Shown: positions 1 to 6,118 of the stretch, in pieces
Layout: every line of letters begins with the position of its first letter
Numbering within the stretch: the first letter of the stretch is position 1
Assembly: GCA_024278415.1 (NCBI GenBank)
Contig: JAJRTI010000813.1
Span: 1 to 6,118, forward strand
DNA from: Planctomycetota bacterium
Lineage (GTDB): Bacteria > Planctomycetota > Brocadiia > JAJRTI01
Length of the DNA: 6,118 nt
Direction of reading: 5' to 3'
Notes under the pieces: generated by a model
What the model was told of the DNA's origin: nothing
The model's input: the letters and a program-made list of their open reading frames with translations, nothing else
The model's database searches: none
Position numbers and translations under genes: made by a program

Positions 1-92
1 CGCACGCAGACCGCGCTCATGGAGACGACGTAGACGGCGATCAAGACGGCGACGACTGCCGCGCGGCGGCGTCGAGTCGTCGCGGCGGTCAC
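1..92 (-). CDS. N-terminal fragment of a probable membrane-anchored or secreted protein (runs off the window)
   Basis: This is an open frame of about 31 codons that continues past the left edge of the window. It starts with GTG at 92-90, which overlaps the TGA stop of the upstream small ORF in a GTGA arrangement typical of translational coupling. A G-rich stretch (GGGGG) lies about 8 nt upstream of the GTG and may act as a weak ribosome binding site. The predicted start reads MTAATTRRRR followed by about 17 hydrophobic residues (AAVVAVLIAVYVV and onward). This positive-then-hydrophobic pattern fits a signal peptide or signal anchor, so the product is probably inserted in or exported across the membrane. 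Third codon positions are strongly G/C, like the confident genes nearby. No family can be named from so short a piece. The export signal is read from the sequence; the coupling is inferred. Confidence 0.5.
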   Translation of the reverse strand, partial: MTAATTRRRRAAVVAVLIAVYVVSMSAVCV

Positions 93-352
93 GCGCTGCG
101 CCCCCGCTTGGGTTCGTACGTGCAGCACGGCTTGGCTTCGAGGAAGGCGCCCCCCGCGGCGCACGCGCGTGCGCGGCGCCTGCTCTTGAGCGCGTCGGGA
201 TCGCGCGGCTCCGCGCGTTGCCAAGTCTGGCTCGGTGGGAGCTGGCGCACGTTTCCAGCGGACACGGGTAGGTTGCACGCGGACGTGGTCTCCCGGAAGA
301 CGACGCGGAGGAGAGGGGCGATCGACCCATTTCGTGCGGGATGACTTGCCAA
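89..352 (-). CDS. Small hypothetical protein, 87 aa, not recognised
   Basis: I do not recognise this ORF. It starts with TTG at 352-350, with AAGGA about 9 nt upstream as a possible ribosome binding site, and ends in a TGA that overlaps the GTG of the next frame. The product has no obvious membrane segment. It is rich in Arg and Pro (an RRRARAC stretch near residues 58-64) and contains four cysteines (26, 64, 76, 77), the last two adjacent in PCCTYE. G/C is strong at third positions from about residue 11 onward but weak in the first ten codons, so the true start may lie further in. The main support for coding is the GTGA junction with the following frame. The gene sits after ahbC, beyond a heptamer hairpin. 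It could equally be chance open frame in GC-rich DNA. Confidence 0.35.
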   Translation of the reverse strand: MASHPARNGSIAPLLRVVFRETTSACNLPVSAGNVRQLPPSQTWQRAEPRDPDALKSRRRARACAAGGAFLEAKPCCTYEPKRGRSA

Positions 353-385
353 ACCGGCTGTTCCTTGCCAAGAGCGAGGCAGAGT

Positions 386-467
386 GCGTAAAGCGTAAGG
401 ACGTAAAACGTACGGCGCCCGGCGGTGGCAAGCTCATGCTTTACGTTTTACGCTCTACGCTTTACGC
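386..467. repeat. Long inverted repeat with heptamer arms at the ahbC stop codon; possible terminator or 3' mRNA structure
   Basis: The left arm (386-412) and right arm (442-467) are inverted copies. Two blocks match perfectly: GCGTAAAGCGTA at 386-397 against 456-467, and CGTAAAACGTA at 402-412 against 442-452. They are separated by a short mismatched stretch and a 29-nt GC-rich loop. On the minus strand the right arm reads as 7-bp units GCGTAAA, GCGTAGA, GCGTAAA, ACGTAAA. The TAA stop of ahbC (464-462) lies in the first unit, so the hairpin begins at the stop codon. No U-tract follows, so it is not a classical intrinsic terminator. It may instead block 3' exonucleases or be a repeat element inserted at the gene end. 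The arms are AT-richer than the surrounding DNA. Confidence 0.8.
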
Positions 468-1613
468 CCCAATCTCTTCGTCCGTGAGATAGCATGCCGG
501 CTCCTCGGCCCACACGTCGCCGTATTGGGCCTCGGCGCGCACGCGCATGTTGCCGTTGCAGATGTCGAGGAACTTGCACTTCGCGCACCGGCCCTTCAAG
601 AGTGGCTTGCGGTTGCGCAGGCCCTTCAGGATCGGGTCGGACTCGTCGCTCCAGATCTCGGAGAACTTGCGGTCGCGCACGTTGCCGAAGGAGTGGTGGC
701 GCCAGAACTGGTCTGGGTGCACCTGGCCGCGGTCGTCGATGCAGGCGATGCCAATGCCAGAGCTGTTGCCGCCGTTCCACTTCAGCAACTCGTAGGCCTC
801 GTCCGCGCGGTCGGGCGCTTCTTCGAGGAGTTTGAGATACACGTACGGCCCGTCGGTGTGGTTGTCGACGGTGAGGATTTCCTTTGCGTTGCCGGCGGCG
901 AACATCTCTCGCGTGCGCCGCACGACCGTGTCCACGCTGGCCCGCGCCTCCGCGTGCGACTGGTCCTCCTCCATGAGCTTGCTGCCGCGGCCGGCGTAGA
1001 CGAGGTGGTATACGCAGCAGCGCGGGATGCCCTCGGACACGAGCAGATCGAAGATGGGCTCGAGGTCGTGCTGGTTGCGCTTGTTGATGGTGAAGCGCAG
1101 GCCGACCTTCACGCCTGCGTCGAGGCAGTTGTGGATGCCTCGGAGCGCGTTGTCGAACGCGCCATCGACCGCGCGGAAGCGGTCGTTGGTTTCGCGCAGG
1201 CCGTCGACGCTGACGCCCACGTAGCTGAAGCCGGCCTCCTTGATCGCGGCGGCCATCTCCGGCGAGATGAGCGTGCCGTTGGTGGAGATGACCGCGCGCA
1301 GGCCGGCGTCGACCGCGTACTTGCCCAGCTCCATGAGGTCGGGCCGCAGGGTCGGCTCGCCGCCGGAGAACAGCAGCACCGGGCAGCCGAACGCGGCCAC
1401 GTCGTCGATGATGGCCTTGCCTTCGTCCGTGGTGAATTCGCCGACGAACTCCTCGTCACGCGCGTGCGCGTAGCAATGGACGCAGCGGAGGTTGCAGCGC
1501 CGGGTCATGTTCCACACGACCACGGGCCGGCGCTCGCGCTGGATGTCCTGTCGGTAGCGCAGGTGCTCGTTCGCAGTCGTCGAGCCGCAGACTAGTCTGG
1601 TGATGTCGATCAT
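462..1613 (-). CDS. ahbC: 12,18-didecarboxysiroheme deacetylase AhbC (radical SAM, NirJ/AhbC family)
   Basis: This 383-aa protein matches AhbC along its whole length. AhbC is the radical SAM enzyme of the siroheme-dependent haem pathway; it removes two acetate side chains from 12,18-didecarboxysiroheme to give Fe-coproporphyrin III, which AhbD then converts to haem in the cytoplasm. The family-typical N-terminus (MIDITRLVCG) is followed by WNMTRRCNLRCVHCYAHA, with the [4Fe-4S] cysteines C40, C44 and C47, and SGGEP at 83-87 for SAM binding. The block HPDQFWRHHSFGNVR (299-313) is characteristic. The C-terminal auxiliary-cluster region has C291, C343, C346, C352 and C374 and ends EPACYLTDEEIG, again typical. 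The ATG start fits the family N-terminus, though no clear Shine-Dalgarno sequence precedes it. Other ahb genes are not in the window. The related NirJ (haem d1) is the main alternative, but the N- and C-terminal signatures favour AhbC. Confidence 0.9.
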   Translation of the reverse strand: MIDITRLVCGSTTANEHLRYRQDIQRERRPVVVWNMTRRCNLRCVHCYAHARDEEFVGEFTTDEGKAIIDDVAAFGCPVLLFSGGEPTLRPDLMELGKYAVDAGLRAVISTNGTLISPEMAAAIKEAGFSYVGVSVDGLRETNDRFRAVDGAFDNALRGIHNCLDAGVKVGLRFTINKRNQHDLEPIFDLLVSEGIPRCCVYHLVYAGRGSKLMEEDQSHAEARASVDTVVRRTREMFAAGNAKEILTVDNHTDGPYVYLKLLEEAPDRADEAYELLKWNGGNSSGIGIACIDDRGQVHPDQFWRHHSFGNVRDRKFSEIWSDESDPILKGLRNRKPLLKGRCAKCKFLDICNGNMRVRAEAQYGDVWAEEPACYLTDEEIGA

Positions 1614-1764
1614 ATGTTGGGAACCGGGAATGAATCGAGATTGGCGAGATAAAAGACAAGTGCCTGACGAGCCGCGGCGCCTCGACGAGTCCTCAGGTCA
1701 GCGCGCGCCTCTTCCTCCGCGCGTTGGCGCCATTGCGTCCGCCGTACGGCGGCCAGCGTGTCCA
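1614..1764. other. Intergenic gap between amrS and ahbC, no gene seen
   Basis: These 151 bp separate the amrS stop from the ahbC start. A perfect 14-bp palindrome lies close to the amrS stop (1739-1752). Next to the ahbC start the minus strand has two units resembling RTTCCCR, perhaps a remnant of a heptamer repeat. A TTGTCT hexamer on the minus strand could be a -35 element, but no good -10 is found at 16-18 bp. The gap is long enough for ahbC to have its own promoter, but I cannot place one. Confidence 0.5.
1739..1752. repeat. Perfect 14-bp palindrome CCGCCGTACGGCGG after the amrS stop
   Basis: CCGCCGTACGGCGG equals its own reverse complement and lies 12 nt past the amrS stop codon on the transcribed side. 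As DNA it could be a dimeric protein-binding site upstream of ahbC; as RNA it is a short GC hairpin at the 3' end of amrS. No T-run follows it. A palindrome of this length is unlikely by chance at one site, but the DNA is GC-rich. Confidence 0.45.
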
Positions 1765-2748
1765 TCACCACACGATGGCCGGCGCGAAGCCGCAGACCGC
1801 GCAGGTGCGGCCGTCGATGCCCGTGATGCGCGTGTGGTAGCCGGAACGTTCGATCAGCTTGTGGCCGCACTTGGGACAAATCGTGTCGGACGTGCCCGGC
1901 AGCGCCACGTTGCCGAGGAACACGTAGTGCAGCTTCTCGCAACCGATCTCGTAGGCCGTGCGCAGGGTCGCTTCGGAGGTCGCGGGTGCGGTGAATTTGA
2001 ACTGCGGATGGTAGCGGCTGAAGTGCAGCGGCATCGTCGGGTCCACGGACGCGACGAAGTCCACGAGCGCGGTGATCTGCTCGCGCGAGTCGTTCACCCC
2101 GGTCACGATCAGGTTCGTCACCTCTACGTGGCAGGCTTGGCTCGCCTCGCGGATGGTGTGCTGCACCGGCGCGAGCCGGCCCTTGGCGTGGAGTTTGTAG
2201 ACGTCGTCCTCGATGGCCTTGAGGTCGATGTTCATCGCGTCCGCGAACGGCAGCAGCTCCGCGAGCGGTTCGGGGCTGACGAAGCCGTTGGTCACGAGCA
2301 CGTTGGCCAGGCCGGCGTCCTTCGCGAGCGCCGCGCAGTCCATGAGGAACTCGAACCCGACGAGCGGTTCGTTGTAGGTGTAGGCGATGCCGCAGGAGTC
2401 GTGCTGCCGCGCGGCGGCGACGAGTTGCTCCGGCGACGCGGCTTGCATGCTTGCGCGGCCGTCGGACAGATGCCAGTTCTGGCACCACTCGCAGCGCAAG
2501 TTGCAGCCGTTGGCGCCGATGGACAGGATGTTCGAGCCGGGCTTGAAGTGGTAGAGCGGCTTCTTTTCGATGGGGTCCATCTGCACCGCGGCGACTTGGC
2601 CGTACGTCGTCGCGTCGAGCACGCCGTCCACGTTGCGGCGCACGCCGCAGAAGCCAGTCTTGCCGGGTGCGATCTTGCACTCCTGCGGGCAGAGGTGACA
2701 GGCGACCTTGCCGGTGTCAAGCTTTTCGTAGTAGCGCGCTTCGTGCAT
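1765..2748 (-). CDS. amrS: AmmeMemoRadiSam system radical SAM enzyme AmrS
   Basis: This is a radical SAM protein related to pyruvate formate-lyase activating enzymes, of the family that accompanies AMMECR1 and Memo proteins. The physiological substrate of that system is not settled. Numbering from the ATG at 2748 gives 327 aa. An N-terminal cysteine motif (CHLCPQEC, with a further Cys in GFCGVR) is followed by the family block DPIEKKPLYHFKPG. The cluster motif CNLRCEWC has cysteines at 82, 86 and 89, followed by QNWHLS. AYTYNEP, VTNGF, NIDLKA and HFSRYHP are further family blocks. The C-terminus carries two CxxC pairs (CPKC and CAVC) that look like a zinc ribbon. I chose the ATG because MHEARYYEKLD matches the usual family N-terminus. 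A GTG five codons upstream (2763) lies in the heptamer array and is possible. No AMMECR1 or Memo gene is in the window. Confidence 0.9.
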   Translation of the reverse strand: MHEARYYEKLDTGKVACHLCPQECKIAPGKTGFCGVRRNVDGVLDATTYGQVAAVQMDPIEKKPLYHFKPGSNILSIGANGCNLRCEWCQNWHLSDGRASMQAASPEQLVAAARQHDSCGIAYTYNEPLVGFEFLMDCAALAKDAGLANVLVTNGFVSPEPLAELLPFADAMNIDLKAIEDDVYKLHAKGRLAPVQHTIREASQACHVEVTNLIVTGVNDSREQITALVDFVASVDPTMPLHFSRYHPQFKFTAPATSEATLRTAYEIGCEKLHYVFLGNVALPGTSDTICPKCGHKLIERSGYHTRITGIDGRTCAVCGFAPAIVW

Positions 2749-2759
2749 GGCGACACTGG

Positions 2760-2812
2760 TCACTCGTCACTCGTCACTCGTCACTGATTACTGATTACTG
2801 ATTACTGATTAC
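2760..2812. repeat. Tandem heptamer array, (TCACTCG)3 TCACTGA (TTACTGA)3 TTAC
   Basis: Read on the plus strand, the array has seven full 7-bp units and a 4-nt partial one: TCACTCG at 2760, 2767 and 2774, one intermediate TCACTGA at 2781, TTACTGA at 2788, 2795 and 2802, then TTAC. The intermediate unit carries half of each flanking type. The array fills the gap between the acetyltransferase gene and amrS and overlaps both ends: the acetyltransferase stop TAA is the complement of the first three bases of the unit at 2802, and the upstream GTG start candidate of amrS lies in the first unit. The repeat is one-sided, with no matching inverted arm nearby, so it is not itself a hairpin. Confidence 0.9.
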
Positions 2813-3776
2813 AGGCCACAGCTCGCCGCTCACTTCCCGCACCCGGCCCATCGGGACACGTGTCGCAGTTCTTGTATTTGAGTGGCGGCTTCTCGATAGT
2901 CACTTTCGTGCCGGGCGCCACGGAGTGGGTCACCCACGCGTTGCCGCCGATGACCGCGCCGCGGCCGATCACCGTCTCGCCGCCCAGGATTGTGGCGTTG
3001 GGGTAGACGATCACGTTGTCCTCGATCGTCGGATGGCGCTTTCGGTTGCGCAACTCGTTCACTTCCTCCGTGGGCAGGCTGAACGCGCCGAGGGTCACAC
3101 CGTGGTAGAGGCGCACGTTTGTGCCGATGACGCTCGTCTCGCCGATGACGACGCCGGTGCCATGGTCGATGAAGAACCGCTCGCCGATTTGTGCGCCGGG
3201 GTGGATGTCGATGCCGGTCTCGCGGTGCGCGTACTCGGTCATGATGCGCGGGAGCACGGGCACGCCGAGTTGATAGAGCACGTGCGCAATGCGCTGCGTC
3301 GCGATGGCGCGGATGCAGGGGTAGCTGAAGATGATCTCGTCGAGCGACTTCGCGGCCGGGTCGCCGTCGAACGCGGCCTGCACGTCGAGCTGCATGAGCC
3401 GGCGCAACTCGCCGATCTGCTCCATGAACAGCACGGCCTGCGCCTGGCCGCGCTGCCGGCAATGGCAGCAGGGCTTGCGCACCTCGCGGCACCCGTGCCG
3501 GTACGCCTTGGCGATCTCGTCGGCCAGCAGATCGAAGACCTGGCCGCATAGCTCCCTGACATGGCCCACCAGGTCGACGCGCGGCCGTTCCTGATCGCCG
3601 TAGTAGCCCAGGAACAGCAACTGGAACAGCAGCCCGCAGATGCGCTCCGCGAGACACTCCGACGGCATGGGATGATCGAGCACGTGCTGCGCGTCCGCGT
3701 CTTGGCGGTAACGCGCAACCAAGTCGTCGGCGATGCCGTCGATCTTGGGCTGGAATGGATGGTCGGTGTCGATCAC
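2802..3776 (-). CDS. cysE: Serine O-acetyltransferase, EpsC type
   Basis: This 324-aa enzyme should transfer acetyl from acetyl-CoA to serine, giving O-acetylserine, the first step of cysteine synthesis. Residues 1-150 are the helical N-terminal part, ending in the EpsC-type block DVQAAFDGDPAAKSLDEIIFSYP. A left-handed beta-helix of hexapeptide repeats follows to about residue 295. The catalytic pair is seen as D190 in GIDIHPGA and H205 in FIDHGTGVVIGET, with the same 15-residue spacing as D143/H158 of E. coli CysE. RHPTIEDNVIVYPNATILGGETVIG is also typical. It is longer than E. coli CysE, as EpsC types are. Oddities are a CCHC cluster (103-106), a C-terminal NCDTC (303-307), and a tail whose last residues (CNQ) and stop come from the heptamer array. 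The GTG start has only a weak AGAG upstream; the next Met (37) would cut the domain. The gap to E2 suggests separate transcription. Confidence 0.92.
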   Translation of the reverse strand: MIDTDHPFQPKIDGIADDLVARYRQDADAQHVLDHPMPSECLAERICGLLFQLLFLGYYGDQERPRVDLVGHVRELCGQVFDLLADEIAKAYRHGCREVRKPCCHCRQRGQAQAVLFMEQIGELRRLMQLDVQAAFDGDPAAKSLDEIIFSYPCIRAIATQRIAHVLYQLGVPVLPRIMTEYAHRETGIDIHPGAQIGERFFIDHGTGVVIGETSVIGTNVRLYHGVTLGAFSLPTEEVNELRNRKRHPTIEDNVIVYPNATILGGETVIGRGAVIGGNAWVTHSVAPGTKVTIEKPPLKYKNCDTCPDGPGAGSERRAVACNQ

Positions 3777-3801
3777 GGCTCTATCACAGGTGCGAAGGCT
3801 G

Positions 3802-3829
3802 GGTCATTGGTCATTCGTGATTCGTCATT
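3802..3829. repeat. Heptamer array upstream of the acetyltransferase gene
   Basis: Four adjacent 7-bp units read GGTCATT, GGTCATT, CGTGATT and CGTCATT on the plus strand, followed by a diverged GTTGTTG. They lie 26-53 nt upstream of the acetyltransferase start codon, so they would be in its 5' leader if transcription comes from upstream. The first two units are nearly the exact inverse of the heptamers at 4034-4047, so the two blocks flank the REP-like element between them as inverted repeats. Confidence 0.75.
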
Positions 3830-3836
3830 GTTGTTG

Positions 3837-3872
3837 GGCGCTTAGCGCCGCGTGACCGACAACTTCTTGTCG
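3837..3872. repeat. Two small hairpins between the heptamer array and the REP-like element
   Basis: GGCGC at 3837-3841 pairs with GCGCC at 3845-3849 across a 3-nt loop. CGACAA at 3857-3862 pairs with TTGTCG at 3867-3872 across a 4-nt loop. Both are perfect short stems. They could be remnants of the surrounding repeat elements, or, for CGACAA-N4-TTGTCG, a small operator upstream of the acetyltransferase gene. Function is unknown. Confidence 0.45.
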
Positions 3873-3900
3873 ACGTGCGCGGGGCGCGTCGCCGTGGTTA

Positions 3901-3975
3901 GTAGTAGGGCAATTCATTGCCCGTCGAACGTTTCTTGTCCTCACGGGGCAGACGGGCGATAAATCGCCCTACTAC
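3901..3975. repeat. REP/BIME-like element: two inverted 25-bp hairpin units
   Basis: Two 25-bp arms (3901-3925 and 3951-3975) are inverted copies with 22 of 25 matching positions, separated by exactly 25 bp. Each arm is itself a hairpin: GGGCAATTCATTGCCC on the left and GGGCGATAAATCGCCC on the right, each flanked by GTAGTA and GTC-type ends. Two of the three differences between arms are compensatory within the hairpin (an A-T pair in one is a G-C pair in the other), which indicates that the fold is conserved. This is the layout of bacterial interspersed mosaic elements made of paired REP sequences, which are spread in trans by RAYT transposases. No transposase is present here. Confidence 0.8.
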
Positions 3976-3988
3976 GAGCATAGGCACT

Positions 3989-4048
3989 TGTCATTCACCA
4001 TTCGTGGCTCGGCCGGCGTGGGCCACCAATGCCCAATGGCCAATGACC
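3989..4048. repeat. Heptamer-built hairpin directly after the E2 stop codon; possible terminator
   Basis: On the minus strand the sequence immediately after the E2 TGA reads in 7-bp units GGTCATT, GGCCATT, GGGCATT, then GGTGG (4048-4023). The opposite arm (3989-4007) reads TGTCATT, CACCATT, CGTGG on the plus strand. The arms pair with one extra heptamer bulged out and a GC-rich loop of about 15 nt. This has the same design as the hairpin at the ahbC stop but a different unit sequence. No U-tract follows, so Rho-independent termination is not certain. Confidence 0.7.
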
Positions 4049-5197
4049 TCACACCACCAAGTTCATCGGGCTTTCGAGCAGCCGCCGGATGTCGTTGAGG
4101 AACTCCATGGCCTGGCCGCCGCTGAACACGCGGTGGTCGCCGGAGAGCGTCATCTTCATGCGCTCGGCCGGCACGATGGCGTCGCCGACCACGGCCGGCA
4201 CGCGGCGTACGGACGCCACGCCAAGCAATGCGGCCTCCGGGGGGTTAATGATAGCAGCGAAGTTCTCAACGCTATACATGCCCATGTTCGAGATGGTAAA
4301 CGTGCCGCCGGTGTAGTCGGCTTCCTCGAGCTGGCCGTCGCGCGCGCGGGCGGCCAGATCCTTGGCCTCCGCGCTGATCTGCGCCAGCGTCTTGCGGCCG
4401 CAGTCGCGCACGACCGGCACCACCAGCCCCCCGGGCACGTCGACCGCGATGCCGATGTGGACTCCCCCGCGGCGGATGATGCGGTCGCCGGAGAACGAGC
4501 TGTTGATCTCGGGGTGCGCCTTCAGCGCCATGGCCGCGGCCTTGACGACCAGGTCGTTGATCGTGATCTTGGCCCGGCCCGCGCATTGCTCGTTGACCGC
4601 CGCGCGCATGGCCAATGCGCGGCCCATGTCGACTTCGATCGTAATGTAGAGGTGCGGCGCGGTGGTCTTGCTGAGCGTCATGCGCTCCGCGATGGCCTTG
4701 GCCATGGGCGTGAGCGGGATCTCTTCGTCTCGCGCGGCAGGCGCCGTGGCCGGCGCGGGGGGCTCGTGCGCGAGCACGTCGCGCTTGACGATGCGGCCGC
4801 CGGGGCCGGAGCCCGCGACCGCGGCCAGGTCGATGCCGCGCTCCTTGGCCATCTTGCGCGCGATGGGCGAGGCCTTGATGCGCCCGGTGGGAGCGTCTTC
4901 CGGCGCGGGCGCTGCTGGCTTGGCCATTGGGGCCGGCTCCGGCTCGCCGATGTCCTCGTCCGCGCCCGCGATGATCCCGATAGTGGTTCCGAGAGGCACG
5001 GTGGCCTCCTCAGGCACGACGATTCGGCGCAGCACGCCGGACGCGTACGCTTCGATTTCGAGCGTGGCCTTGTCGGCCTGGATCTCGACGATGGGCTCGC
5101 CCTTTTGCACAGCCTCGCCCACGGCTTTGAGCCACTTCGAGACCATGCCTTCCTTCATGGTGTCGCTGATGCGCGGCATCACCACGTTCGTCGCCAT
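4049..5197 (-). CDS. pdhC: Dihydrolipoamide acyltransferase (E2) of a pyruvate/2-oxoacid dehydrogenase complex
   Basis: This 382-aa E2 subunit would carry acyl groups on a swinging lipoyl arm and transfer them to CoA; pyruvate (giving acetyl-CoA) is the likeliest substrate. Residues 1-77 form one lipoyl domain with the lipoylated lysine at K43 (QADKATLEIEA). A Pro/Ala-rich linker follows, then the peripheral subunit-binding domain at 108-142 (KASPIARKMAKERGIDL and GSGPGGRIVKRDV), a second linker, and the catalytic domain from about 158. The catalytic histidine is H355 in LSGDHRVFSGG. The usual HxxxDG aspartate is Ser359, an unusual change noted separately. INDLVVKA and FTISNMGMYSVENFAAIINPPE are intact. 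The ATG is well placed, with AGAAGGA 6 nt upstream (5204-5210). It lies 32 bp after the ferritin-like gene, so they are probably cotranscribed. No E1 or E3 gene is in the window. Confidence 0.93.
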   Translation of the reverse strand: MATNVVMPRISDTMKEGMVSKWLKAVGEAVQKGEPIVEIQADKATLEIEAYASGVLRRIVVPEEATVPLGTTIGIIAGADEDIGEPEPAPMAKPAAPAPEDAPTGRIKASPIARKMAKERGIDLAAVAGSGPGGRIVKRDVLAHEPPAPATAPAARDEEIPLTPMAKAIAERMTLSKTTAPHLYITIEVDMGRALAMRAAVNEQCAGRAKITINDLVVKAAAMALKAHPEINSSFSGDRIIRRGGVHIGIAVDVPGGLVVPVVRDCGRKTLAQISAEAKDLAARARDGQLEEADYTGGTFTISNMGMYSVENFAAIINPPEAALLGVASVRRVPAVVGDAIVPAERMKMTLSGDHRVFSGGQAMEFLNDIRRLLESPMNLVV

Positions 5198-5203
5198 GCT
5201 GTG

Positions 5204-5210
5204 TCCTTCT
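5204..5210 (-). promoter_or_regulatory. Ribosome binding site of the E2 gene (AGAAGGA)
   Basis: The minus strand reads AGAAGGA followed by CACAGC and the ATG, giving a 6-nt spacer. It is the clearest Shine-Dalgarno match in the window, fixes the E2 start, and shows that E2 can be translated independently of the upstream ferritin-like gene. Confidence 0.75.
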
Positions 5211-5229
5211 GGTTGGCTTGATGCGGTTC

Positions 5230-5721
5230 CTATCCGGCGGCCTCGCCGGCCGGCCTGGGCACGCCGGCCAGGGACACCTGCGCGTCATGCATCGCGACGC
5301 GCTCCTCGGTCAGCACCATCACGTGCTCGCGTTCTTGGTCGGCCATGAGTTCGAGCAGATCGCGTTCTTCCTCAGTCTGTGCACGGCCGGCCCAGCGGCG
5401 GTAGAACCCCTCGGCCGCCTTTTCAGCCTGGATGGCCATCTGCATAACCTTGTCGATGGACAGCGGCGCCTCGTCGAACCGCGCACCGCCCTCCAGGTCG
5501 CCGCCCGACACCGTGCACAGCAACTTTTTGCCGGTGGCGAGCCGGTACCACTGCTCCACGCATTTCTGGTGGCGCTCCTCGGTGTGCGCCATGCCGAGGA
5601 GCTTCTCGGACACGTGGGGGATCGGCGTGCGCCCGGCCAGCTCGGTGTAGAAGATCGCGGCGCGGACTTCTTGCATGTACGCGCGGCGCAGGATGTCGAG
5701 GATGTTTTCGCTGACGGACAT
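5230..5721 (-). CDS. Ferritin-like (rubrerythrin-type) diiron protein
   Basis: This 163-aa protein is mostly helical and carries two half-sites of a ferritin-like diiron centre. The first is E18 (QEVRAAIFYTELAG) with E48xxH51 (HTEERHQ). The second is E100/E104 (AEKAAEGFYRRW) with E130xxH133 (DQEREHV). Rubrerythrin-family proteins of this kind act in the cytoplasm in peroxide reduction or iron handling. No CxxC rubredoxin domain is present, so it would need an outside electron donor. A 25-30 residue segment (63-92, with Cys69) links the two helix pairs, and Cys54 follows the first ExxH. I chose the ATG at 5721 because GGGAG lies 9 nt upstream and a promoter-like element overlaps the longer TTG-start version (5784). 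It is the first gene of a probable operon with E2. The exact subfamily and substrate are unknown. Confidence 0.8.
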   Translation of the reverse strand: MSVSENILDILRRAYMQEVRAAIFYTELAGRTPIPHVSEKLLGMAHTEERHQKCVEQWYRLATGKKLLCTVSGGDLEGGARFDEAPLSIDKVMQMAIQAEKAAEGFYRRWAGRAQTEEERDLLELMADQEREHVMVLTEERVAMHDAQVSLAGVPRPAGEAAG

Positions 5722-5730
5722 GAACGGGTT

Positions 5731-5735
5731 CTCCC
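5731..5735 (-). promoter_or_regulatory. Ribosome binding site of the ferritin-like gene (GGGAG)
   Basis: The minus strand reads GGGAG, then nine nucleotides, then ATG. It decides between the ATG at 5721 and the in-frame TTG 63 nt upstream, which begins inside the candidate -35 element. Confidence 0.6.
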
Positions 5736-5755
5736 AGGCTGAGGCCAGGGCGCTC

Positions 5756-5784
5756 ATCTTACCGGAAGCGCGCGGCGAATCCAA
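5756..5784 (-). promoter_or_regulatory. Candidate sigma-70-like promoter for the ferritin-E2 operon
   Basis: On the minus strand TTGGAT (5784-5779) is followed by a 17-bp spacer and TAAGAT (5761-5756). The -10 matches TATAAT at four positions, including the first two and last, and the -35 keeps TTG. Transcription would start near 5749, giving a leader of about 28 nt containing the GGGAG ribosome binding site. This geometry is consistent, but the hexamers are imperfect and the host's promoter consensus is unknown. Confidence 0.4.
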
Positions 5785-6085
5785 TGCGCATCACCGCGTG
5801 CCCGCCGCGCGTGCGGTCGCCCAAGCCCATGCTCTTCGCCCACAACTTCGCCGCTAATGCCGCTGCCGCGCCGCACTGGAAGCGCCTGGAGGACGGAGCA
5901 GGCCCATTCGTTGTCTCTCTGAATGCGTCAGAAGCGTTCCTTCCCCCAACACACGCGCTTCGGGAGGGAGCAACGAATCAATAGAACGCAACGAATGGCG
6001 ATCGAGACGCGCATCGGCCCGCCATGCGCGGGATTCTTCCGGCCTCTTCAGTCGCGGCCAGAAGCCGCGCCAGGTCCATGAGCGG
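5785..6085. other. Non-coding region upstream of the ferritin-like gene
   Basis: I see no convincing gene in these roughly 300 bp. The half nearest the ferritin-like gene (5785-5900) has no repeats I can define. The rest holds the ATTCGTTG repeats (5904-5998), a weak inverted pair GAATGC/GCGTTC at 5921-5939, and stem-loops from 6018 onward. One minus-strand frame is open from 6117 to 5854, but its translation looks random and it lacks a good start. Confidence 0.5.
5904..5998. repeat. CCATTCGTTG / CAACGAATGG inverted pair with a third CAACGAAT copy
   Basis: CCATTCGTTG at 5904-5913 is the exact inverse of CAACGAATGG at 5989-5998, with 75 bp between. A further copy, GCAACGAAT at 5970-5978, is a direct repeat of 5988-5996, offset by 18 bp. 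The set lies roughly 150-250 bp upstream of the candidate ferritin-E2 promoter. It could be binding sites for a regulator or the ends of a small degenerate element. Confidence 0.5.
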
Positions 6086-6096
6086 CTACAGCCGCT
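6018..6096. repeat. Three consecutive short stem-loops, REP-like
   Basis: CCCGC/GCGGG pair at 6018-6022 and 6028-6032 (5-nt loop). CGCGGC/GCCGCG pair at 6053-6058 and 6064-6069 (5-nt loop). AGCGGCT/AGCCGCT pair at 6081-6087 and 6090-6096, a 7-bp stem closing on 2 nt (or 6 bp closing on 4). The last two share GCGGC and GAAGC words, which suggests a common origin. The final stem-loop overlaps a TAG stop codon of the frame entering from the right edge. Confidence 0.55.
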
Positions 6097-6118
6097 TCTT
6101 GCGCTGACGCTCGATCTC
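6086..6118 (-). CDS. Possible C-terminal end of an upstream gene (runs off the window)
   Basis: From the right edge, one minus-strand frame reads EIERQRKKRL and then TAG (6088-6086). Its third codon positions are nine of ten G/C, while the competing frames are mixed, so this is the best candidate for the tail of a gene beginning beyond the window. A lysine/arginine-rich C-terminus is common, but ten residues cannot identify a family. The stop lies in the loop of the 6081-6096 stem-loop. Confidence 0.35.
   Translation of the reverse strand, partial: EIERQRKKRL

Follow-up and report, generated by a model that had tools for sequence, protein, structure and literature searches.

We analysed a stretch of 6,118 nucleotides from a Planctomycetota bacterium (contig JAJRTI010000813.1, positions 1 to 6,118; hereafter the window), whose five genes, all on the minus strand, are an ahbC-like gene, AmrS, a serine acetyltransferase gene, an E2 acyltransferase gene and a ferritin-like gene. 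Tandem arrays with a period of seven bases lie at the stop codons of the ahbC, acetyltransferase and E2 genes. An original prediction, made from the sequence of this stretch, had attributed them to a process that makes or places period-7 repeats at gene ends, rather than to copies of one element; it had missed the inverted pairing of arrays at two of the three places, as well as a link to the protein family PF05635 (23S-rRNA-intervening-sequence protein, S23p, "four helix bundle protein"). In other bacteria, we observed array-gene-array units with a PF05635 gene in the middle, sites that are occupied by such a unit in one record and empty in another, and gene-less hairpins built of arrays of the same unit family. 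From these observations we infer, at about even confidence and as the likeliest mechanism, that the window arrays are relatives, devoid of the gene, of the PF05635 elements which settle at stop codons.

Tandem Repeats Finder reported period-7 arrays in the window at 386-412, 438-467, 2754-2785, 2783-2812, 3802-3830 and 4026-4045. When periods 4-15 were scanned, a score of 12 was attained only by period 7 (segments of 13.5, 42.0 and 13.5) and by its double, 14; among 300 first-order Markov copies of the window, one reached at least 13.5 (14.5) and none came near 42. The GCGTAAA-type array (438-467, minus-strand reading), which is detected by Tandem Repeats Finder, by the scan and in the sequence itself, contributes its own letters as the ahbC stop TAA (462-464). 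The composite array (2754-2812, score 42.0), comprised of about four TAATCAG and then about four TGACGAG units on the minus strand, spans the gap between the acetyltransferase and AmrS genes, contains the acetyltransferase stop TAA (2802-2804) and encodes the final two residues, NQ, of that protein. The E2 stop (4049-4051) is directly followed on the minus strand by GGTCATT GGCCATT GGGCATT (4025-4048), the first base of this array being the next after the stop; taken singly it is weak, with 2.9 copies and a score under the scan threshold. Additionally, a GGTCATT-type array on the plus strand (3802-3830) is found 25 bp away from where the acetyltransferase gene starts, and not at any gene's 3' end. 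The arrays at the three stops are thus real by Tandem Repeats Finder, the period scan and the sequence, and the coordinates confirm that ahbC and the acetyltransferase gene both take their TAA from the array. The four unit types of the window yield no consensus with a run of three G, so that there is no single dominant G-rich unit of the Xanthomonas type, and since the unit sequences differ, a reading of the arrays as copies of one element was rejected.

Comparison with relatives places two of these contacts more precisely. Past the invariant EIG of AhbC, all 12 aligned relatives are 1-3 residues longer than the window protein, whose final Ala codon and stop (GCG TAA) belong to the array, and all nine aligned E2 relatives stop in the same column as the window protein. 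The acetyltransferase tails are variable among the 12 relatives aligned, and the position of the array there is uninformative, because the whole gap, some 40-50 bp wide depending on the start of the next gene, is taken up by the array. As 7-bp tandem units close to the upstream stop in all three places, the arrays have the features of heptameric simple-sequence repeats, with only the ahbC and E2 places being informative on position. The original observation of period-7 arrays at three gene ends is confirmed; the acetyltransferase place says nothing about position.

Two of the three places carry inverted pairs. The array at the ahbC stop is one arm of a hairpin whose other arm is a GCGTAAA array in the plus-strand reading (386-412), recognized by Tandem Repeats Finder, folding and shuffling. 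This pair scores 20 (438-467 against 330-437), a value as high as in none of 1000 shuffles, and the stretch 380-475 folds at -44 kcal/mol (z -4.73, 0 of 200 shuffles). The arrays 3802-3830 and 4025-4048 are likewise inverted partners (score 14 for 3802-3830 against 3831-4048, 0 of 1000 shuffles as high), and the hairpin at the E2 end is weaker (z -2.79). The presence of inverted partners strengthens the two weaker arrays. Accordingly, terminal inverted repeats, as in rRNA intervening sequences and PF05635 elements, are present for 386-412/438-467 and 3802-3830/4025-4048 and not for 2754-2812. Between the arrays of the second pair lies a palindrome pair (3901-3975; 25 nt, 88% complementary, z -7.19) with GTAG at both outer ends, the tag standing at the palindrome foot and the two palindromes being oppositely oriented. 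It looks like a GTAG dimer of repetitive extragenic palindromes (REPs) nested within a heptamer pair, and shares its tags and their orientation with the GTAG REP pairs described in PMC3733652, which lie mainly downstream of genes. Unlike these REPs, the heptamer arrays have no fixed tag and no fixed sequence.

The link to PF05635 came from one of two stand-in drafts reached via relatives of the acetyltransferase, these being a deltaproteobacterial draft (G007, L003) and an Acidobacteriota draft (G001, L001). In G007, a perfectly inverted array pair flanks a gene of 125 aa matching PF05635. We found the family in 18 of the 28 genomes searched, with 72 matches, 60 of which had a locus; after setting aside five under the curated cut-off, 55 loci remained, which are not independent, several being from one genome or from sister species. 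Period-7 arrays scoring at least 10 occur in both 350-bp flanks at 15 of the 55 loci and in at least one flank at 29, and 36 loci have inverted flanks scoring at least 20. The corresponding numbers for 178 pooled control genes are 0, 12 and 10; a sample of 150, drawn from the 316 genes of G007 that encode 90-180 aa, accounts for 0, 10 and 9 of them, and 28 genes taken at 12 Bacteroidota loci for 0, 2 and 1. Period 8 is represented by arrays at seven of the 55 PF05635 loci, and period 9 at six. At ten of the 15 two-sided loci the inverted score reaches 20 or more and is higher than the direct one, and one locus (L146) is clearly direct. An Acidobacteria contig (L002) carries an inverted TGAAGGA pair whose first array contains the stop of an open reading frame, and TGAAGGA is also the unit at a PF05635 locus (L159) of that genome.

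Next, a tblastn search of plasmid records with the G007 PF05635 protein gave 42 matching records, mostly from cyanobacteria, of which 17 were examined. Arrays stand on both flanks at eight of the 17 loci and on one flank at four, and inverted flanks scoring at least 20 are present at eight; the two-sided L209 and L212 are not inverted. Pfam confirms PF05635 in all six plasmid proteins tested, five of which also give a weak bAvd match. The distance from the host stop to the array, obtained from 10 of the 15 annotated records, is at most 6 nt in six of the 11 cases measured, the others being 27, 32, 113, 167 and 266 nt.

Six occupied sites were compared with records that have no gene at that place. 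In Trichormus (L203) versus the empty site of Aulosira (L218), TAAT flanks the element on both sides and occurs once in the empty site, where it contains the upstream stop TAA. The empty counterpart of the Nostoc C052 site (L202) reads CTAGGTTATG in L210, a stop and then the next start; in L202 the element follows CTA and provides the A. In N. edaphicum (L208) compared with Calothrix (L222), the neighbor comes to end in TAG, whose G is contributed by the array, and in L206 the array begins 1 nt past the stop. The insertions in L205 and L210 lie between stop and start with no clear duplication; a clean 4-bp duplication is seen at one of the six sites. A decayed form and gene-less forms are also represented: at the L203 site, L223 retains an array together with a PF05635 gene that is truncated, and L225 and L226 carry gene-less hairpins of inverted AGTCAGG-type arrays at a gene end (folding at -65.5 and -68.0 kcal/mol over the stretches shown), the same gene being present in L219 and L202 without an AGTCAGG-type insert. 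These gene-less hairpins share the anatomy of window 380-475. A nested double array pair is found in L224. On the plasmids of L205, L209 and L211, the PF05635 gene sits within CRISPR gene strings (cmr2/cas10-cmr3; cas6-cas4).

On this reading, small insertion elements would have given rise to the arrays of the window, either as their ends or as hairpins without the gene. Such an element, as seen in many bacteria, would consist of one PF05635 gene between two period-7 arrays, usually inverted, whose heptamer varies between elements and matches between the two ends of one element. Since the heptamer varies and the ends match, recognition would be of a shape, that of a long stem with seven-base periodicity, and not of one sequence; the PF05635 protein would take part in the movement. 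The elements would come to rest at the stop codon of a neighboring gene. As many heptamers contain a stop trinucleotide and seven is not a multiple of three, an array would offer a stop in every frame and leave the neighbor whole, which would explain why "the array supplies the TAA". Within the window, this would make 386-467 a hairpin that lacks the gene and 2754-2812 a single or rearranged end; in 3802-4048, two inverted arrays would enclose a REP-like insert.

We examined contact with stops in the two stand-in drafts, with genes called by our own codon-score script. G007 has 33 arrays scoring at least 13.5 in 1.2 Mb, 30 of them intergenic, with many different and unrelated units, which bears out the original view insofar as different units of one period need not be copies of one sequence. 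Period 8 is represented there by six arrays and periods 10 and 11 by none, and multiples of three are also common. Six of the 30 intergenic arrays lie within 5 nt of a stop, one of the six abutting the stop of a PF05635 gene. Placement anywhere gives an expectation of 0.54 (0 of 2000 runs with as many), and placement within the same gap gives 1.77 (7 of 2000). None of the 30 lies within 5 nt of a start, and at a looser threshold eight of 43 are near stops and one of 43 near starts. G001 has 21 arrays scoring at least 12 in 344 kb, 14 of which lie between two called genes, after exclusion of seven at contig ends or with the midpoint in a gene (one of these overlaps a stop). Three of the 14 are within 5 nt of a stop, compared with 0.31 expected anywhere (13 of 3000) and 0.78 in the same gap (96 of 3000), and none is within 5 nt of a start. 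Several arrays of this draft, at L132, L239, L250 and L263, sit close to the ends of contigs, as though the assembly had been broken there by longer repeated elements.

Stop contact is thus enriched, yet most arrays are elsewhere. In G007, 19 of the 30 arrays are separated from the stop by over 50 nt or occupy a gap that no stop borders, and in gaps with one stop side and one start side, 10 arrays are nearer the start and five nearer the stop. The idea of a process placing arrays at gene ends, which a lack of stop enrichment over controls would have spoken against, thus held in both stand-ins insofar as contact exceeds chance, but the stop is not the usual place. Such contact may reflect targeting or survival, because in tight operons only insertions at the stop spare both genes.

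Several results weigh against an origin of the window arrays in PF05635 elements. A profile of 20 PF05635 proteins, run against the window in six-frame pieces, detected no trace of the family, and the acetyltransferase array (2754-2812) has no inverted partner within 100 bp. No array scoring at least 10 was found at 26 of the 55 PF05635 loci, and neither flank has one at five of the 17 plasmid loci. G001, array-rich as it is, gave no PF05635 match, though it is a fragmentary draft with several arrays near contig ends. In G007, inverted partners within 300 bp are not in excess for arrays outside genes (5 of 44 versus 33 of 176 controls at score 12), and the 500 bp around such arrays revealed no remnants of PF05635 (0 of 42), so that the solo arrays of this draft are unsupported as two-ended miniature elements. 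For 20 of 50 units of G007 arrays away from PF05635 genes, an exact match exists among the units of the PF05635 loci in this draft (shuffled units: mean 4.1, maximum 18); with one mismatch allowed, the difference disappears (36 versus 34.8). As for the window units, in about 2.7 Mb of sampled DNA we found TGACGAG arrays in G001 (three), CGTCATT arrays in G007 (two) and TAATCAG at one PF05635 locus, and no GCGTAAA or GGTCATT arrays. The negative results of both drafts and the loss of unit sharing indicate that arrays may also arise or persist without the PF05635 gene. An identical TGACGAG run is found in window 2754-2812 and at an unrelated place in the Acidobacteriota draft (L263, 4405-4465), heptamer units thus recurring across phyla, and a Prevotellaceae draft (L031; 1876-2290 and 14068-14136) holds several heptamer arrays, with units ACTCTAC, GAGTAAT and TAAGTGA, within 15 kb.

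The main rival, which we consider possible and somewhat improbable, is that the arrays are ordinary heptanucleotide repeats arising from replication slippage, with 7 nt as a favoured length, and kept where genes are spared. The PF05635 elements would then be one user of the repeats and not their source, and stop contact would be what selection permits, as in tight operons both genes are spared only by insertions between stop and start. Heptanucleotides are the commonest longer repeats in most genomes, for which a polymerase footprint has been proposed (Mrazek and others 2007, as reported in PMC4679880 and PMC4692102), and the unpaired, remnant-free arrays of G007 and the array-rich G001 without PF05635 fit this explanation as well. 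However, slippage does not make inverted partners, as in the window, or inverted arrays around PF05635 genes, and array and gene arrive together when occupied sites are compared with empty ones. Moreover, stop contact exceeds same-gap placement in G007 (7 of 2000) and, weakly, in G001 (96 of 3000).

An improbable explanation is that the arrays are functional 3'-end elements, stems that end transcription or protect messenger 3' ends, with selection keeping a stem of seven-base rhythm whatever its sequence. The strong hairpin at the ahbC end, the weaker one at the E2 end and the position of the arrays downstream of genes agree with it, but the acetyltransferase array, within a tight gene string, has no fold beyond that of its shuffles (z 0.28), a poor fit to the roles in termination or 3'-end protection that the original prediction had offered. 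Intrinsic terminators, taken as a G+C-rich stem with short loop and T run, were predicted at two window sites, both on the plus strand inside opposite-strand genes; as none is at an array (scan of loops 3-8 only), a terminator reading of the arrays was rejected. Rfam gave no match in the window at gathering thresholds, and the majority of G007 arrays are away from stops. Least probable of all is that a translational regulator binds the arrays close to gene starts, a role suggested for the Beggiatoaceae TAACTGA arrays just upstream of start codons (PMC4679880), since one protein recognizing one sequence misfits units that differ from place to place and no array in G007 (0 of 30) or G001 (0 of 14) is within 5 nt of a start, even though the acetyltransferase-AmrS array and 3802-3830 are also near starts.

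The arrays as described are a known kind of repeat, and both stop contact and inverted pairs have already been described in Xanthomonas. There, GGGAATC arrays are 89-93% intergenic, lie on average 28 nt from the 5' neighbor gene and 160 nt from the next, are often at or overlapping stop codons, and form 70 and 75 close inverted pairs in two genomes (PMC4692102). The available portions of that account state that these repeats are generally not found with mobile elements, and draw no PF05635 link. Like the window arrays, the Xanthomonas GGGAATC and Nostoc GGGGA(C/T)T repeats have a period of 7, are intergenic and lie near the upstream gene; unlike them, they represent one G-rich unit family per genome, whereas the window has several units without G runs in 4 kb (PMC4692102). 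The 23S rRNA intervening sequences with S23p/PF05635 resemble the window in having heptamers and a terminal inverted-repeat stem, which is 28 bp in Coxiella; the Coxiella element has tandem GACAGAT heptamers beside S23p, in strain-variable copy number. In contrast, the intervening sequences sit in rRNA helices, while the window arrays lie at protein genes and enclose no PF05635 gene (PMC4990558). The TAACTGA repeats of Beggiatoaceae, Cyanobacteria and Bacteroidetes are intergenic heptamer arrays too, but with one unit and a proposed regulatory role, and in the Beggiatoaceae genome most of them come directly before starts; in a Microcystis sample, eight of 24 TAACTGA sets lie between stop codons (PMC4679880). 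Heptanucleotide elements have also been described in Geobacter (PMC2700814).

PF05635 genes with period-7 arrays on both sides, and array-gene-array insertion at stops, appear to be new. In the open-licence literature, the only paper found to bring heptamers and PF05635 together was the one on Coxiella, which, in its available parts, gives the heptamers beside S23p as a local feature (PMC4990558). The best solved structure for the Trichormus PF05635 protein is XCC0516 of Xanthomonas campestris, so that Xanthomonas, known for its heptamers, also carries a PF05635 gene. Avd, known from diversity-generating retroelements, and PF05635 are homologous (PMC10053308), and a published table for Flavobacterium columnare places the start of a four helix bundle gene 35 nt past guanylate kinase (PMC5524665).

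Bacterial heptamer repeats have long been noticed, and we know of no agreed origin for them. Beyond the window, we tentatively suggest, with less than even confidence, that many of them may be ends, hairpins or scars of one minimal insertion-element class, whose sole gene is PF05635, a relative of Avd, and which would be recognized by period and shape and enter at stops. Structures of PF05635 proteins have been solved, and we met no role for them outside rRNA in the literature examined. If the repeats and PF05635 belong together, the repeats would be footprints of mobile elements and stop codons their landing place; the protein would gain a testable process, and a puzzling class of repeats a testable origin.

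As for the genes of the window, all on the minus strand, the ahbC-like radical SAM gene (462..1613) matches TIGR04546 with 596.6 bits, under the curated cut-off of 650. It is followed in coordinate order by the AmmeMemoRadiSam radical SAM gene AmrS (1765..2763; start GTG 2763 or ATG 2748), the serine acetyltransferase gene (2802..3776), whose last residues are coded by the array, and the E2 dihydrolipoamide acyltransferase gene (4049..5197). The contig scan for close relatives gave 59 loci, with a best-segment identity never above 58%. The closest AhbC and acetyltransferase relatives are on contigs of matching size (6640, 3918 and 38351 bases), which suggests a conserved neighborhood for window 462-3776.

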